Shown piece after piece: positions 3,746 to 39,354 of a stretch of 39,366 bases of DNA. A program made the position numbers and the translations under genes. The stretch comes from a virus. Under the pieces are notes generated by a model. That model did not search any database. It worked only from the letters and a program-made list of their open reading frames with translations, and was not told where the DNA came from. Within the stretch, counting starts at the first letter, position 1, and every line of letters starts with the position of its first letter. Where the stretch lies: the IMG/VR virus record IMGVR_UViG_3300024265_000124, positions 1 to 39,366 of that record; one strand, given 5' to 3'.

Positions 3746-3981
3746 TAACAGGTACAGAGGTACTTAATCTAGTAGCAAAGCAAATGGCAATACCTCTTAA
3801 AGGGATTCGTAGTAGTGATTCTCTAAAAGAAGATCTTGACATGGATAGCCTTGATATAGTTGAGCTTGTTCTTGCCATTGAGGAAAAATATAAAGTAACA
3901 ATCTCTGATGAGGCTATAGATTCTATCTATTCAGTAAGAGACCTTATTTGCTTTCTAAAAGGAAAAACAGATGGAAACTAA
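3742..3981 (+). CDS. Acyl carrier protein
   Basis: This 79-residue acidic four-helix protein carries the phosphopantetheine attachment motif DSLD with Ser36, preceded by LKEDLDM and followed by VELVLAIEEKYKV, which is close to textbook AcpP. The GTG start overlaps the ligase stop and is preceded by AAGGAGGTGG; the 3' end overlaps queE by 11 bp, so it is firmly inside the ligase-queE operon. Host holo-ACP synthase would have to load the cofactor, as no transferase is visible in this window. Its partner is unknown. It could carry an acyl or aminoacyl group for a nucleotide or membrane modification, or interfere with host lipid metabolism. The family call is strong and the role is open. Confidence 0.93.
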   Translation: MITGTEVLNLVAKQMAIPLKGIRSSDSLKEDLDMDSLDIVELVLAIEEKYKVTISDEAIDSIYSVRDLICFLKGKTDGN

Positions 3982-4597
3982 ACCAATCCTCTACAACATA
4001 AACGAGACCTTCTACAGCATCCAAGGTGAAGGGTATTGGACTGGAAAGGCAATGGTTTTTCTACGCCTTGCAGGGTGTAACCTTAAATGTGCTTTTTGTG
4101 ATACCTCAAGCCTAACAAGGTTCTCTGGTACAGCAGAGCACATTGTCCTCTTCATAAAGAACAGTTGGCCCACAGCAGATACTGTTTGCATCACAGGAGG
4201 GGAGCCTACCATTCAACCAATTAATACTTTAGTGAGTGTACTAAGAAGTGATGGGTACCGAATCCATATGGAGACAAATGGTACTCATCTAATGGAGCAT
4301 AACCTAAAGCATATTGATTGGACTACTTTATCACCAAAAGAAACACAAAGGGATCTACCAGAAGAAGTATACCACGCTGTCAATGAGATAAAGTGGCTTC
4401 AAGGAGTTGGGCCTTATATAAAGATTGACTTAGTGAGAGACATCCTTTTCAGCAGCCCAACTATTAGACACTTCATTCAACCTATACAAGATGATAGGTA
4501 CCAAGAGAATCTTGCTGAGAGTCTTTACATGGTGAAAACCTTTCCTGAGCTTTTCCGTCTCAGCATCCAAACCCAGAACTATTTAGGGTTCAAGTAG
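3971..4597 (+). CDS. queE: QueE, 7-carboxy-7-deazaguanine synthase (radical SAM)
   Basis: QueE rearranges 6-carboxytetrahydropterin to 7-carboxy-7-deazaguanine. The N-terminal NETFYSIQGEG is the QueE signature. The iron-sulfur motif is CNLKCAFC (Cys36, Cys40, Cys43, C-x3-C-x2-C), with TGGEPT near residues 75-80 for S-adenosylmethionine binding and METNGT after it. At 208 residues it matches bacterial QueE (210-225). It starts inside the acyl carrier protein gene. Its last 15 bp overlap the end of the converging virion gene, so no room is left for a conventional terminator between the two modules. Confidence 0.95.
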   Translation: METKPILYNINETFYSIQGEGYWTGKAMVFLRLAGCNLKCAFCDTSSLTRFSGTAEHIVLFIKNSWPTADTVCITGGEPTIQPINTLVSVLRSDGYRIHMETNGTHLMEHNLKHIDWTTLSPKETQRDLPEEVYHAVNEIKWLQGVGPYIKIDLVRDILFSSPTIRHFIQPIQDDRYQENLAESLYMVKTFPELFRLSIQTQNYLGFK

Positions 4598-27276: not shown

Positions 27277-27305
27277 TTTACATTGGTCGGTTTTGGGGGT
27301 ATAAT
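27277..27305 (+). promoter_or_regulatory. Rightward sigma-70-type promoter
   Basis: TTTACA (27277-27282), a 17-base spacer and a perfect TATAAT (27300-27305) precede the small-gene cluster. The start site would lie near 27312, about 30 bases before the first gene. Confidence 0.75.
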
Positions 27306-27341: not shown

Positions 27342-27569
27342 ATGACAACACATGAGAAGGTGTTCAAGGAAATGCAGGAGCAGGATTTATGTGTTTACAT
27401 GACACAGGACATAAGAGAAATTTATAGACAGCATAGGAAGAAAAGACATGGGATGATGGTTGATGATTATTACACAAGGATTGATGTCCATCCAATCGTT
27501 ATCAATCCTTTGATTGACAAAGGAAAGATAAAGAGAATAGCACACGGACATTATGTAATTAATGGTTGA
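27342..27569 (+). CDS. Small protein, possible winged-helix regulator (75 aa)
   Basis: This is the first gene behind the rightward promoter. I chose ATG 27342 because AAGGAGGAG lies just upstream; a start at 27312 would coincide with the likely transcription start. The protein is basic. Its C-terminal part (VINPLIDKGKIKRIAHGHYVI) looks like the last helix and beta wing of a winged-helix domain. Family not recognised. First position in an early operon is common for a transcription regulator, but this is inference. Confidence 0.65.
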   Translation: MTTHEKVFKEMQEQDLCVYMTQDIREIYRQHRKKRHGMMVDDYYTRIDVHPIVINPLIDKGKIKRIAHGHYVING

Positions 27570-27594
27570 CATTGTGACATGAGTATGTTACAAT
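27566..27594 (+). promoter_or_regulatory. Second rightward sigma-70-type promoter
   Basis: A perfect TTGACA (27566-27571), a 17-base spacer and TACAAT (27589-27594) start within the stop codon of the preceding gene. The following bases ATATATGTAAT resemble those after the neighbouring promoters. Confidence 0.7.
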
Positions 27595-28459: not shown

Positions 28460-28882
28460 ATGATAATCATTGACTTGAACAAAGAGTGGAAGATAAAAAA
28501 AGACGTTAAGAAAGTCTTCAAGGCTGCTAACAATCTCACTAGCAAATTACAAAGGCTAAGCATTGACCTTGATGTTGAGGTCAAGGTTCATCTGAATTGG
28601 AATCCATTTCTTATTTGGATAAGACCTAGACGGAAACTATCTCCTGAAATGATGTGTGCTGTTGCTGGTGAGATTGAACTCCTTCTAGATATGACAGAAG
28701 AAGAAGAGTTTACAAAATCAATACGAGGTGAAGTAGTTGACTTTGATGGACATTACAAAGGCTTTAAGTTATGGTTTACTTTCCTTCCCGATGATACTTG
28801 TATATGGGTTGAGGAAGAGATAGCACCAGCAAGAACCTACACAACTAATCCAGTAACAAGAAAGAAACTGGTATGCTCATGA
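28460..28882 (+). CDS. Hypothetical protein (140 aa)
   Basis: The family is not recognised. There is a helical, basic N-terminal third (EWKIKKDVKKVFKAANNLTS), then an alternating strand region with several Trp (NWNPFLIWIRPRRK), then an acidic helix and a beta segment ending in Thr/Lys-rich residues. No metal site or catalytic motif is visible. ATG 28460 follows AAAGGAGAAGAG. It overlaps the next gene. Confidence 0.7.
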   Translation: MIIIDLNKEWKIKKDVKKVFKAANNLTSKLQRLSIDLDVEVKVHLNWNPFLIWIRPRRKLSPEMMCAVAGEIELLLDMTEEEEFTKSIRGEVVDFDGHYKGFKLWFTFLPDDTCIWVEEEIAPARTYTTNPVTRKKLVCS

Positions 28883-29331
28883 GTAACCTAGAGAACAATG
28901 AACCATCTGATTGGAGTGATGAGCAGGATCTTGATCCTGACATAGATCCACAAGAACCACTAGACCCGTTAGAAGTGGATGATACGCAAAGCCTTTCACC
29001 TGAGCAGTATGAAGAGCTCCAAAAGTGGAAGCAAAGACAAGGGAACAAGAAGACAGTTATCTTTGTCAAGGTAACCATTGAGCATGAGTGTTTGCTCTGT
29101 GGTCATGAGAGGAAAAGAACCATGAAGGTTGACTTGGATACAAAGAAGAAGTGGGTGGCAGAGAACCTTTTAGATAAGAACAACACCTATCATTCAAAGG
29201 ATACTACCTGTCCATTTTGCTCAGAGCATCTTATCCAAGTTGATAAGGAAACTCTTGTAAGTATGCTCATTGAGCAAGCAAAGAAACTTGGACGGACACC
29301 TTTACCAAAAAGGAGTAGACATGGAAAGTGA
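28873..29331 (+). CDS. Zinc-ribbon protein with acidic N-terminus (152 aa)
   Basis: The first 60 residues are very acidic (DEQDLDPDIDPQEPLDPLEV). They are followed by a CLLCGHERKRTMKVD segment and CPFCSEHL, a four-Cys zinc ribbon. The start is uncertain: ATG 28873, or ATG 28879 which makes an ATGA overlap with the preceding stop. Neither has a strong Shine-Dalgarno sequence, so translation is probably coupled. The function is unknown. Confidence 0.7.
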   Translation: MLMSNLENNEPSDWSDEQDLDPDIDPQEPLDPLEVDDTQSLSPEQYEELQKWKQRQGNKKTVIFVKVTIEHECLLCGHERKRTMKVDLDTKKKWVAENLLDKNNTYHSKDTTCPFCSEHLIQVDKETLVSMLIEQAKKLGRTPLPKRSRHGK

Positions 29332-29924: not shown

Positions 29925-29962
29925 TAAAGAGCAAATCTAACTATGAAAGGAGGTGAGCTAGA

Positions 29963-30991
29963 TTGTCATTGAGAGAGTTGAAGAAGGGCGAGAAGGTGTT
30001 GGTGATAGGCAAGACGTCCAACTTTAATATAGGCGACATTGTAACCATCAAAGGACGAACAATTAGTGGCATTGGATACAAGTGCTCAAACGGCGAGGAA
30101 GAACTTGGCAAGAGTCGTGGCCAACTCCTCGCCATTGGCGACAAGGTAACCCGTGGGCCGGATTGGGAACGTTGTTATTATGACCAAGATGGAGGGGAAG
30201 GTAACGCTGGGGTAATAACTCACATTCTCCCAGATAGACCAAAACAGCCAGTACGTGTTCTATGGGATAATGGCAGCACTCCCGGAGCTAACCCATATTA
30301 CCGCATGACCCCCAACCACCAAGACCTCAAGCCCACAGGTGATAGCGTGGAGGATGGTAAACCAGAGTGTTTTGGAAACTGGGTATGCAATGGACATAGT
30401 TGCCAAACTTGTCCTAACATTCCATTTAGCCAAGACACAAGATGTGGATGTGACCTTGAGCGTTGCCTACATGCAAGAGGTTGTAAAGCCCAACATGATG
30501 GGGAGCCAGAGAAAGAAGATCAATTTATTAAAGAAAGTGATAAACCAGAGTGTTTTGGGAAGTACCCGTGCCGTAAATACCCTGCTTGTAGTGGATGTCC
30601 AAGCCAAGGAAGGAGCCAAGCAGGTAACTGTAAGTGCAATGCTTGTAAACATCAGCATCATGGCTGCAACCCAGAACTTGAACTAAACGAACCCAAACCC
30701 TTAAAAGAGGAGAAAACAACCATGCCAAGCACCCAGGAAACATTTGACAGGCTTGAAAGAGCCAACCAGATCAAGCTTGTTGAGAAGCCCAAAGCCGAGA
30801 ATAAGATCAAAGCAGCTGAGGAAGACTTCAACCTTTTAGAAGACGAGATGAACCGTCTTCTCAAATACCCAACACTGTTCTCTGAGAAGCAGGGAATGCT
30901 TGAGGCAGTCGTTGGTAAGGAGAAGGCCAAGGAAACAATGCGCCTACTCGACCTGGGCATGCCAGTCAGCATCAACATCACCAAGAGCTAG
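29963..30991 (+). CDS. MIB/HERC2-domain protein with two Cys-rich repeats (342 aa)
   Basis: The start is TTG 29963, 6 bases after AAGGAGGTGA. Residues 1-58 are a beta-rich, KOW/SH3-like lead-in. Residues 59-116 match the MIB/HERC2 domain of eukaryotic E3 ubiquitin ligases: VTRGPDW, DQDGGEG, then VRVLWDNG and YYRM. Two related Cys-rich units begin KPECFG near residues 133 and 193, each with eight or more Cys that could bind zinc or form disulfides. The C-terminal 90 residues (from about 254) are a separate helical domain, with an ATG at 30721 preceded by AGAGGAG that might allow a shorter product. The substrate or binding partner is unknown. There is no RING, HECT or other ligase domain. Confidence 0.8.
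   Translation: MSLRELKKGEKVLVIGKTSNFNIGDIVTIKGRTISGIGYKCSNGEEELGKSRGQLLAIGDKVTRGPDWERCYYDQDGGEGNAGVITHILPDRPKQPVRVLWDNGSTPGANPYYRMTPNHQDLKPTGDSVEDGKPECFGNWVCNGHSCQTCPNIPFSQDTRCGCDLERCLHARGCKAQHDGEPEKEDQFIKESDKPECFGKYPCRKYPACSGCPSQGRSQAGNCKCNACKHQHHGCNPELELNEPKPLKEEKTTMPSTQETFDRLERANQIKLVEKPKAENKIKAAEEDFNLLEDEMNRLLKYPTLFSEKQGMLEAVVGKEKAKETMRLLDLGMPVSINITKS
30358..30558 (+). repeat. Direct repeat pair inside the MIB/HERC2 gene
   Basis: The 18-base sequence TAAACCAGAGTGTTTTGG occurs at 30358-30375 and again at 30541-30558, 183 bp (61 codons) apart. It encodes the KPECFG start of both Cys-rich units and indicates a fairly recent internal duplication. Confidence 0.85.
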
Positions 30992-31022: not shown

Positions 31023-31044
31023 ATCCATAGGGTTGGAGGTACAT

Positions 31045-31341
31045 ATGCTTATATGTAAGGAATCTATAACTTGTATCGAAGCACATAGATGTGGACATGC
31101 TCTACCCCATACCAAAGAGCAATGTTTAGATGTTTATTGGGTGATGGGAAAAGGTTTATGGAGATGCCCTCTATGCTTTTCATGTAAATATGGGACTTCA
31201 AATCCTGATAAGTGTCACTACCCAGACAAAAATGATACTTGTGTTTGTGAAGATGAAGAAGGACTACTCAATCTAAACAAGGAGGAAGCACATGACACAG
31301 AAGGAGCAGGAGTTAGTCAAGAGGTTACGCAAGCAGGTTAA
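31045..31341 (+). CDS. Cysteine/histidine-rich small protein (98 aa)
   Basis: There are at least nine Cys residues, in CKESITCIEAHRCGHA, CPLCFSC and CHYPDKNDTCVCED, suggesting one or two zinc sites. The C-terminal part is acidic. I chose ATG 31045 because TTGGAGG lies five bases upstream; an in-frame TTG at 31033 would add four residues. It overlaps the next gene by 50 bp. The function is unknown. Confidence 0.7.
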   Translation: MLICKESITCIEAHRCGHALPHTKEQCLDVYWVMGKGLWRCPLCFSCKYGTSNPDKCHYPDKNDTCVCEDEEGLLNLNKEEAHDTEGAGVSQEVTQAG

Positions 31342-31781: not shown

Positions 31782-31965
31782 TGAAGTATCATGGCACTCT
31801 GCTTCTTTAAAGGATGCCCCTGAATTAACAAGACATAGCCCTTTTATAGAAAGTAGAGGACACCAAGGTAACGAGATGTTTAAGCTTCTTGTAGCTAATG
31901 GGGAAACCTATACAATGATTTTAATAAAGGAGGAAAAGGGTGAAGCAAGTAACAGCAAAGCTTAA
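31762..31965 (+). CDS. Small protein of unknown function (67 aa)
   Basis: GTG 31762 is preceded by CGGAGGTGAC, giving a 67-residue product starting MQITIFNEVSWHSASLKDAP. It appears to be a small alpha/beta domain with no motif. It overlaps genes on both sides in the compact rightward cluster. Confidence 0.6.
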   Translation: MQITIFNEVSWHSASLKDAPELTRHSPFIESRGHQGNEMFKLLVANGETYTMILIKEEKGEASNSKA

Positions 31966-32197
31966 GGAGATAAACCTTGACCTTTCCAAACCTCAACCCA
32001 GACCCCTTGAGCCTGGAGATAGGATCCTTTGGAATAACTACAAATCTGTTGTAGTTGAGCTGGATAGTGAAAAGATAACTGAAACAAGGAAAGGCCACAA
32101 TCTCTACATACAAGACTGGATCATCCACTCAGGAAAGATAGTTAGGGTTAGCTACATTGTAATAACTAAGAAAAAGGAGGCAAAGAAAGATGACTGA
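31940..32197 (+). CDS. Small SH3-like protein (85 aa)
   Basis: GTG 31940 is preceded by AAAGGAGGAAAA. After a helical basic start comes LEPGDRILWNNYKSVVVELD and IIHSGKIVRVSYIVITKKK, which reads as a small beta barrel of SH3/KOW type. A similar GD-type barrel is encoded at 33502-33723. Function unknown. Confidence 0.65.
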   Translation: MKQVTAKLKEINLDLSKPQPRPLEPGDRILWNNYKSVVVELDSEKITETRKGHNLYIQDWIIHSGKIVRVSYIVITKKKEAKKDD

Positions 32198-32917: not shown

Positions 32918-33505
32918 ATGAACAAAAGCGAACAAGCGATAAAGCTCCTAGCCGTGGTCAGTGATGGGCTTATAAGTTCCTGTAAGGATTGTGATGGACT
33001 TGAGCTTATATGTCATTCAAGTGATTATCCTCATGAATGTTCGCTGGAGCAACAAAAGCATATGACTTGTGAGGATTGTAAATGGTTTAAGCCCTGCCCC
33101 ACCTGTCAACTTTGGGGGGAGTTGCGGAAGAAGTTGTGCTACCACGAGCAAGATGGTGTTTATGAAGGACTTGTTGGACATTGTAAACATTGTGGTAAGG
33201 AGTTCATGTGTTTAGGCGTACCAGATGAAGAACTTAGCCCCGACCTAATAGTCAAGATGCACGGAGACATCCCCCTTATCGTTCACTGGATGAAAAGCTT
33301 GAGGATTTGGGAGGAGTTTATTAACTGGATGAAAGCTTGTAGATATGAAATATCTTGTGCAATGGCTCCAGGTGGTAAGGATACAGAATTGTCTGGAGAA
33401 ATAATAGATATGTTTATTAAATATGAACATGAAGACATCCTCATCAACGGAACACTTCGGCTTTCGGCAATTGTGGAATATCTAAAGCAGAGGGAGGGAA
33501 GATGA
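32918..33505 (+). CDS. Cysteine-rich protein, probable zinc-binding (195 aa)
   Basis: The N-terminal 95 residues hold many Cys pairs: SCKDCDG, TCEDCKWFKPCPTC and HCKHCGKEFMC. This suggests two or three zinc sites. The C-terminal half is helical with several Trp (VHWMKSLRIWEEFINWMK) and no further motif. The RBS is a weak AAGGGAA, six bases after the preceding stop. Function unknown. Confidence 0.7.
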   Translation: MNKSEQAIKLLAVVSDGLISSCKDCDGLELICHSSDYPHECSLEQQKHMTCEDCKWFKPCPTCQLWGELRKKLCYHEQDGVYEGLVGHCKHCGKEFMCLGVPDEELSPDLIVKMHGDIPLIVHWMKSLRIWEEFINWMKACRYEISCAMAPGGKDTELSGEIIDMFIKYEHEDILINGTLRLSAIVEYLKQREGR

Positions 33506-33723
33506 TAAAAAGCACTGATTTCAAGAAGGGTGACCAAGTGCTATATGTCCCTTATCATGCTCATGGTAATAGACAGCACAAAGACTGCCAGAAGGGTGTG
33601 GTATCTAGTACCAATGATGAAAACGTGTTTGTTAAGTATAATAACCTAATGTGCATTATGACTACTGGGGACGAGCCCTACACAGCACAGGCTACAAGGC
33701 CCGAGGACCTAGTGATGCAATGA
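33502..33723 (+). CDS. Small SH3/KOW-like protein (73 aa)
   Basis: The pattern FKKGDQVLYVPYHAHGNRQH, then GVVSSTNDENVFVKYN and TRPEDLVM, is a small beta barrel found in many phage genomes as an uncharacterised protein. It overlaps the previous stop (ATGA), with AGGGAGGG upstream. Function unknown. Confidence 0.75.
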   Translation: MIKSTDFKKGDQVLYVPYHAHGNRQHKDCQKGVVSSTNDENVFVKYNNLMCIMTTGDEPYTAQATRPEDLVMQ

Positions 33724-38125: not shown

Positions 38126-38372
38126 GTATGAAGTTGGGAGATTGGTGGATATACCTACAGACCATTACATCCTCAAAGTAGGAGTTCAAAGAGGAACAGT
38201 TTATCTTTGGGCTCTTGTAAACACAGACTCACCAAAGGTACAAAAGGACTTCCGTCTCTGGGGCACTGGTCAAGAGATTAACAAAGGCTTAAAAGTTGAC
38301 CATATAGGAACTTGTATTGACTACCAATCACCTCAGAAGTATGTCTGGCATGTCTTTGAGGTGTTCAAATGA
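38109..38372 (+). CDS. Small phage protein of the VWHVFE type (87 aa)
   Basis: GTG 38109 follows AAGAGGAGG (spacing about 6). The pattern KIVYKYEVGRLVDIPTDHYI, then VYLWALVNT and VWHVFEVF, matches a small beta-rich family often seen in phages (I believe DUF7352, unverified). It overlaps the preceding gene and queD. Function unknown. Confidence 0.72.
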   Translation: MKIVYKYEVGRLVDIPTDHYILKVGVQRGTVYLWALVNTDSPKVQKDFRLWGTGQEINKGLKVDHIGTCIDYQSPQKYVWHVFEVFK

Positions 38373-38779
38373 GAGTAGCTAGAAGCTTTCACTTTGATGG
38401 AGCACATAAACTAGCCAATTCCCATGAAGGGAAATGTGCAAACCTCCATGGGCATACCTGGAAGCTTACAGTCTCTCTTGAAGGGGAGATAGATTCAAGT
38501 ACAGGTATGGTAATGGACTTTTCAATCCTCAAGCCTATAGTTAACAACATAGTGAAAATGCTTGACCATAGATATTTAAATGACTTCATCCCCAACCCAA
38601 CAGCAGAAAACCTTGTTGATTGGTTTGCTAAAAAACTAATCCCAAAGTTCGAGCCAAAAGATGTAAACGACCCTCTTAACAACCTTTACTCTTTAACAAT
38701 TAAACTCCAAGAGGGTGAGGGAGGTTGGGCTGAGAACACCTATGGCCTTTTCCCTGCTCAAGAGGACTCTTCTGGATGA
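38369..38779 (+). CDS. queD: QueD, 6-carboxy-5,6,7,8-tetrahydropterin synthase
   Basis: QueD turns dihydroneopterin triphosphate into 6-carboxytetrahydropterin, the second step to preQ0. The zinc ligands are His13 (GAHKL), His27 and His29 in CANLHGH, and Cys23 is the catalytic Cys. DHRYLND and PTAEN complete the family pattern. At 136 residues it matches QueD (about 120) with a short C-terminal tail. It overlaps both neighbours (ATGA), directly upstream of folE. Confidence 0.95.
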   Translation: MRVARSFHFDGAHKLANSHEGKCANLHGHTWKLTVSLEGEIDSSTGMVMDFSILKPIVNNIVKMLDHRYLNDFIPNPTAENLVDWFAKKLIPKFEPKDVNDPLNNLYSLTIKLQEGEGGWAENTYGLFPAQEDSSG

Positions 38780-39354
38780 ATAAAAAGGCTCGGGAAAGAG
38801 AAGTAGCTAAACACATTCGAGGAGCTTTGAAAGCCATGGGGTATGACCTTAGAGACCCAGACTTGAAAAGAACCCCTGAGAGAGTTGCTAAGACCTGGGT
38901 TGAAGAGATGGTTCACATAGAACCCCCAAAGAACGTCTTGGCTGCTTTTCCAAAGAAAGGCTATAAACAAATGGTAGTAATCCATGGGCATGAAGTTTGG
39001 ACAAGGTGCCCTCATCACTTGGAGCGGGTGAGAATGATTGTTTCAATAGGATACATTCCAGGAAAGAAAGACCTTATCCCAGGACTATCCAAACCAGTAA
39101 GATTTGCAGATTACATGGCAAGAGGCCTAATGCTACAAGAGGAGTTTGCAGAGAAAACTGCCAATGCTTTCTTTGAAACACTTGAACCACAAGGTGTTGG
39201 GGTTTACGTCCGGGGGTGGCATAACTGTATGCAGGCCCGAGGGGTAAGGACAAGAGCAGATGCTACTACAACTGCTTTAAGGGGAAACTTTTTAGAGGAT
39301 CCATCTGTGAAAGCTGAGTTCATCCAGATGTGTCTAAGGGAGATATCACCATGA
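38776..39354 (+). CDS. folE: FolE, GTP cyclohydrolase I
   Basis: FolE opens GTP to dihydroneopterin triphosphate, the entry step to both folate and preQ0. The zinc ligands are Cys78 and His81 in CPHHL and Cys151 in GWHNCMQARG; His149 is the second catalytic His. IPGLSKPVRFADYMARGLML and TRADATTTALRG correspond to the conserved core. The usual CEHH is CPHH. At 192 residues it is slightly shorter than E. coli FolE. It starts in an ATGA overlap with queD, an arrangement that ensures the two enzymes are co-produced. Confidence 0.95.
   Translation: MNKKAREREVAKHIRGALKAMGYDLRDPDLKRTPERVAKTWVEEMVHIEPPKNVLAAFPKKGYKQMVVIHGHEVWTRCPHHLERVRMIVSIGYIPGKKDLIPGLSKPVRFADYMARGLMLQEEFAEKTANAFFETLEPQGVGVYVRGWHNCMQARGVRTRADATTTALRGNFLEDPSVKAEFIQMCLREISP

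Follow-up and report, generated by a model that had tools for sequence, protein, structure and literature searches.

MIB/HERC2 domains have so far been described mainly from animal ubiquitin ligases. In Mind bomb 1 (MIB1), two such domains are arranged around a ZZ finger, and REP, ankyrin and RING parts complete the protein. The region formed by the two domains and the finger binds Notch-ligand tails and the N-box of JAG1, and in flies the MIB/HERC2-ZZ-MIB/HERC2 region accounts for most of Mib1 function (PMC11887331). HECTD1, which carries the domain in its MIB/HERC2 (CPH) form, is a HECT ligase. Literature searches, whose scope left out most subscription journals, found no report of MIB/HERC2 in phages. 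Here we describe a protein with this domain from the IMG/VR record IMGVR_UViG_3300024265_000124, a virus contig of 39,366 bases taken over its whole length (hereafter the window). An earlier note, made from the sequence alone, had drawn attention to the protein.

The domain and the gene that carries it

To near certainty the protein belongs to the MIB_HERC2 domain family, as judged from its sequence and predicted fold. Pfam places PF06701 on residues 59-115 (E 2.8e-10) with 40.4 bits against a gathering score of 33.5, and the profile reaches 43.6 bits on the window DNA. In a PDB search with the whole protein sequence MIB1 (4xi6) comes first at 2.8e-12 and HECTD1 second at 0.058. Fourteen copies from phages and bacteria were aligned, and the window copy keeps all eleven columns that are invariant among them (V62, G65, D67, W68, Q75, G83, V99, W101, Y113, R114 and L122): the conserved positions V-x2-G-x-DW, Q, G, V-x-W, YR and L are present, and the Asp-Gln-Asp-Gly-Gly loop is intact. 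Because the conserved DL at residues 121-122 is also present, the domain is complete, ending near residue 124. This copy has two extra residues behind DW and an extended loop between WDNG and YR.

Two AlphaFold2 models were built from alignments that held only window and fetched-locus sequences, none of them eukaryotic. The full-length model has a low mean pLDDT of 58.6 but is good in the MIB region; the model of residues 1-133 has a mean pLDDT of 71.2. The top four PDB entries among the structural matches (VIA) of the shorter model all belong to MIB1 or HECTD1 (Z 9.0-7.8, rmsd 2.4-4.2, 68-79 residues): MIB1 4xi7 leads with Z 9.0 and an rmsd of 2.4 over 68 residues, followed by HECTD1 3dkm (Z 8.7), MIB1 4xi6 (Z 8.7) and HECTD1 2dk3 (Z 7.8), the first unrelated chain being B. 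subtilis YorP at Z 6.8. Foldseek with the same model ranks MIB1 and HECTD1 first and second at probability 1.00 (best E 6e-3), no E-value falling below 0.001 with either model; with the full-length model CAP-Gly and Tudor barrels come out on top, at no significance. The predicted fold of the domain is the MIB/HERC2 beta-barrel. The earlier note had proposed a profile search and a structure prediction as the means of refuting its MIB/HERC2 assignment; the score is significant, the predicted fold is MIB/HERC2-like, and the assignment withstands both. Chance similarity is ruled out by the HMM score, the conserved columns and the fold.

Features of the MIB_HERC2 gene and its surroundings (window coordinates; residues are those of the protein)
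Feature	Position	Strand	Residues	Basis and remarks
Sigma-70 promoter-like site, head of rightward gene run	27277..27305	+		11/12 in consensus scan; function not implied
Sigma-70 promoter-like site with TG extension	27566..27594	+		11/12 in consensus scan
Shine-Dalgarno AAAGGAGGTGA	29946..29956	+		perfect; 6 bases 5' of TTG start; read directly
MIB_HERC2 protein ORF	29963..30991	+	342 aa	TTG start, stop included; ORF list and translation
N-terminal region, likely small beta-barrel (SH3/KOW-like)	29963..30127	+	1-55	inferred from alignment with L102 and two short strands
MIB_HERC2 domain	30137..30331	+	59-123	Pfam match 59-115
Cys-rich repeat 1, KPECFG...	30359..30490	+	133-176	8 Cys; repeat alignment and shuffles
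Cys-rich repeat 2, KPECFG...	30542..30673	+	194-237	8 Cys; repeat alignment and shuffles
Long helix and two short helices, possible coiled-coil dimerisation region	30731..30952	+	257-330	predicted structure

The remaining parts of the protein are less familiar. The N-terminal region may be a small barrel of the SH3/KOW type, which would have five strands: it aligns with the region in front of the MIB domain of L102, and the model shows two short, weak strands (block pLDDT about 31-76 in the 1-133 model). None of the matches of that model is confined to residues 1-50, and no fold was matched clearly there. The two Cys-rich repeats proposed in the earlier note are real by alignment to each other, which scores 87 where the best of 2000 shuffles scores 57. 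They have no family match in Pfam, PHROG or NCBIfam, their Cys spacing is their own and unlike that of a ZZ finger, and in a reducing cytoplasm they would be likely to bind zinc. The C-terminal domain is, as had also been suggested, predicted to be helical (block pLDDT about 66-88 in the full-length model), with a weak match to Myosin_tail_1 under the Pfam cut-off. The absence of a ligase domain likewise holds: neither RING, HECT nor any other ligase domain was matched in Pfam or NCBIfam, and no ZZ finger was matched beside the MIB domain in Pfam up to E 1. Identity as an E3 ubiquitin ligase is ruled out on these grounds, and the protein stands outside the Mind bomb and HERC2 ligase families.

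The start of the reading frame is well placed, since AAAGGAGGTGA sits six bases before the TTG. Genes for terminase, portal, major head protein and tail fibre occupy the minus strand of the contig; the MIB gene has the opposite orientation and belongs to a plus-strand run in which, further along, DNA ligase, primase-like, Sak4-like, PD-(D/E)XK nuclease and DUF669 genes are found, that is, it is oriented with the genes of replication and recombination. Both near-consensus sigma-70 promoter-like sites lie upstream of it, and no plus-strand terminator-like site was found between 27.1 and 36.7 kb. Early expression of the gene is likely from its position: in a plus-strand run with sigma-70-like sites at its head and no terminator-like site inside.

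The same run contains further Cys-rich proteins of unassigned family (28873-29331, 31033-31341 and 32918-33505). Short proteins at 33502-33723 and 31940-32197 resemble small SH3-like barrels by eye, the first of them with weak PHROG matches (E about 0.01-0.05). Elsewhere the window carries a 7-deazaguanine gene set (queC, queE, queD and folE: 827-1549, 3971-4597, 38369-38779 and 38776-39354), which suggests modified phage DNA; a profile search of the record for the TGT family (PF01702) gave no match, so the base-inserting transferase is either absent or too divergent.

The same domain in other phages and in bacterial cells

Relatives proved difficult to recover. Neither the window protein nor three other phage MIB proteins has a similar sequence among the INPHARED phage records, and membership of a known phage family was rejected for the window protein, which matches no PHROG at an E-value under 0.046. 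Peptide-pattern scans based on the window protein or on a first alignment returned no confirmed relative, and neither these scans nor INPHARED yielded a close relative of the whole 342-aa protein. Because protein patterns gave nothing at first, gapped DNA patterns were adopted; these recovered relatives, as did a later scan with an alignment headed by a phage copy. Most pattern hits in genomic contigs proved spurious, the main source being a Nitrospira protein, met repeatedly, that matches GxDW...QDGG by chance; the candidates L088, L089, L090, L092 and L075 are chance matches as well.

At least six other phage groups have the MIB domain over the Pfam cut-off (loci L002, L091, L100, L101, L102, L104 and the L003 group, the last being five contigs with an identical protein). 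Several of the records contain more than one copy. The gene content of the MIB-bearing records suggests large phages; every one of these records is an uncharacterised metagenomic sequence. Small MIB or MIB-like genes also lie next to each other in runs (L100:7502-8874, L101:6797-8628 and, on the L104 contig, G1638 57065-58583), a layout suggestive of local duplication of the domain. The second of these contigs also carries an AAA ATPase (L101:3876-5045), some 3 kb upstream of its MIB genes, with an N-terminal region that to the eye is reminiscent of proteasome-type ATPases.

MIB_HERC2 is rare in bacterial cells. No hits were obtained in about 1,040 genomes of Bacteroidota (345), Bacillota (348) and Pseudomonadota (349); in the planctomycete phylum 1 of 294 genomes was positive, with one further match under the cut-off, and in the myxobacterial phylum 1 of 284. 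The Planctomycetota genome encodes one protein with two MIB_HERC2 domains and a caspase-like domain (L057:211-4758), the Myxococcota genome one with three such domains and EF-hands (L027:1452-3317). Since both genomes are metagenome assemblies, these two positives may reflect mis-binning.

The earlier note had called the domain eukaryote-type. The label is half right but too narrow: other phage contigs and two bacterial genomes carry the domain outside ubiquitin systems. Its further suggestion, an ancient module reused by phages, agrees with this distribution, although the weakly supported tree does not demonstrate it. In that tree of 17 rows (window, other phage, bacterial and eukaryotic copies) the other phage copies form a cluster of their own (support 79/73); the window copy lies outside it, on a long branch among eukaryotic and bacterial rows. 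No branch is strong, and 12 of the 14 inner branches are open. From its position outside the phage cluster the window copy may be a separate acquisition, or it may simply be divergent.

What the protein may do

We tentatively propose, with a probability of roughly 0.45, that the protein is an adaptor of several domains which, early in infection, takes hold of a peptide belonging to a host or phage protein. By analogy with MIB1 and its relatives, the barrel, a true MIB/HERC2 barrel by sequence and predicted fold, would hold a short peptide or tail of its partner, the N-terminal small barrel probably assisting its grip. The Cys-rich repeats, which zinc would stabilise, may bind a second partner, and the helical C-terminus could bring the protein together as an oligomer. 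The likeliest partner would be either a protein of the host or part of the replication machinery that the phage itself encodes; ubiquitin chemistry would play no part. Protein-tail binding is the default expectation because the MIB1 region binds the JAG1 N-box, and a portable recognition module fits because the combination of small barrel and MIB domain recurs in L102, where the predicted barrel-like region is likewise N-terminal, and because the MIB domain is fused to an AAA+ region in L091. More generally, since the domain also occurs, with no ligase part, in other large phages, MIB/HERC2 in phages is probably a reusable peptide-binding module and not a sign of ubiquitin chemistry.

The adaptor is favoured over three other readings, here in descending order. 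SH3-like barrels can also bind nucleic acid or act as structural filler, and Cys-rich repeats are common in nucleic-acid binders. The protein could then be an accessory in which small barrels and zinc-like repeats bind DNA or RNA in the service of phage replication or recombination, as the nuclease, Sak4-like ATPase, DUF669, primase-like and ligase genes of the same run would suggest. Tudor and KOW barrels do occur among the structural matches, but they rank below the MIB hits; the specific match in sequence and fold is to MIB/HERC2, whose documented activity is the binding of protein tails. Moreover, a basic excess is confined to the N-terminal region (10 K+R vs 6 D+E), the MIB domain (8 vs 9) and the Cys region (14 vs 17) having none. 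We consider such an accessory unlikely, though worth keeping in mind.

Lower still we place recruitment to an AAA+ unfoldase or protease, to which the MIB barrel would hand over a host protein of its choosing: a bacterial counterpart of the substrate-binding domain of a ligase. Here the other phages provide the evidence. In L091 the MIB domain (33.7 bits, just over the cut-off) precedes a MoxR-like AAA+ region in one protein, next to a DUF7192 gene; in L002 MoxR-like and CobT-like genes adjoin the MIB gene; and MoxR-like PHROG matches were found in 7 of 10 records searched, nine MIB-bearing phages and the window. The window phage itself has no match to the MoxR-like PHROG family, however, and large phages often have MoxR-like genes, so the co-occurrence may be coincidence; for this protein the idea is improbable. 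A little less credible again is that the domain serves as a structural spacer, or was acquired and retained, with no binding role: the long branch and loop insertions of the window copy would be in keeping with it, but the retention of every invariant column and of the intact loop speaks against it.

That the domain occurs, with no ligase, in several phages that look unrelated and in two bacterial lineages suggests that it is a general recognition barrel. It is a long shot that phages use MIB/HERC2 for substrate recognition in takeover machines, choosing the host proteins to be passed to an AAA+ unfoldase or protease; if they do, phages possess a ubiquitin-free equivalent of the recognition half of a eukaryotic ligase pathway. 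The ligase-free copies offer a testable system for learning what MIB/HERC2 binds outside the ubiquitin pathway.

Comparison with known carriers of the domain

MIB1 is the best match of the window protein in both sequence and structure: its MZM region (PDB 4xi6, 4xi7) shares RGPDW, QDGGEG, WDNG and YR with the phage copy. The architectures differ, in that the window protein has a single MIB domain, no match to ZZ or RING, and two 8-Cys repeats instead. The HECTD1 domain (PDB 3dkm, 2dk3) has the same fold, and here the difference lies in the HECT domain, which the window protein does not possess. The other phage proteins have the domain over the cut-off, as does the window protein, and in L102 the resemblance extends to the N-terminal barrel-like region; none of them was seen to have a counterpart to the Cys-rich or helical parts. 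Some are stand-alone tandem genes, some AAA+ fusions, and in the tree they are weakly separate from the window copy. The Myxococcota and Planctomycetota proteins resemble the window protein in bearing clear MIB domains, two or three of them, with no ligase domain; unlike it, they join these domains to EF-hands in the one case and to a caspase-like domain in the other.
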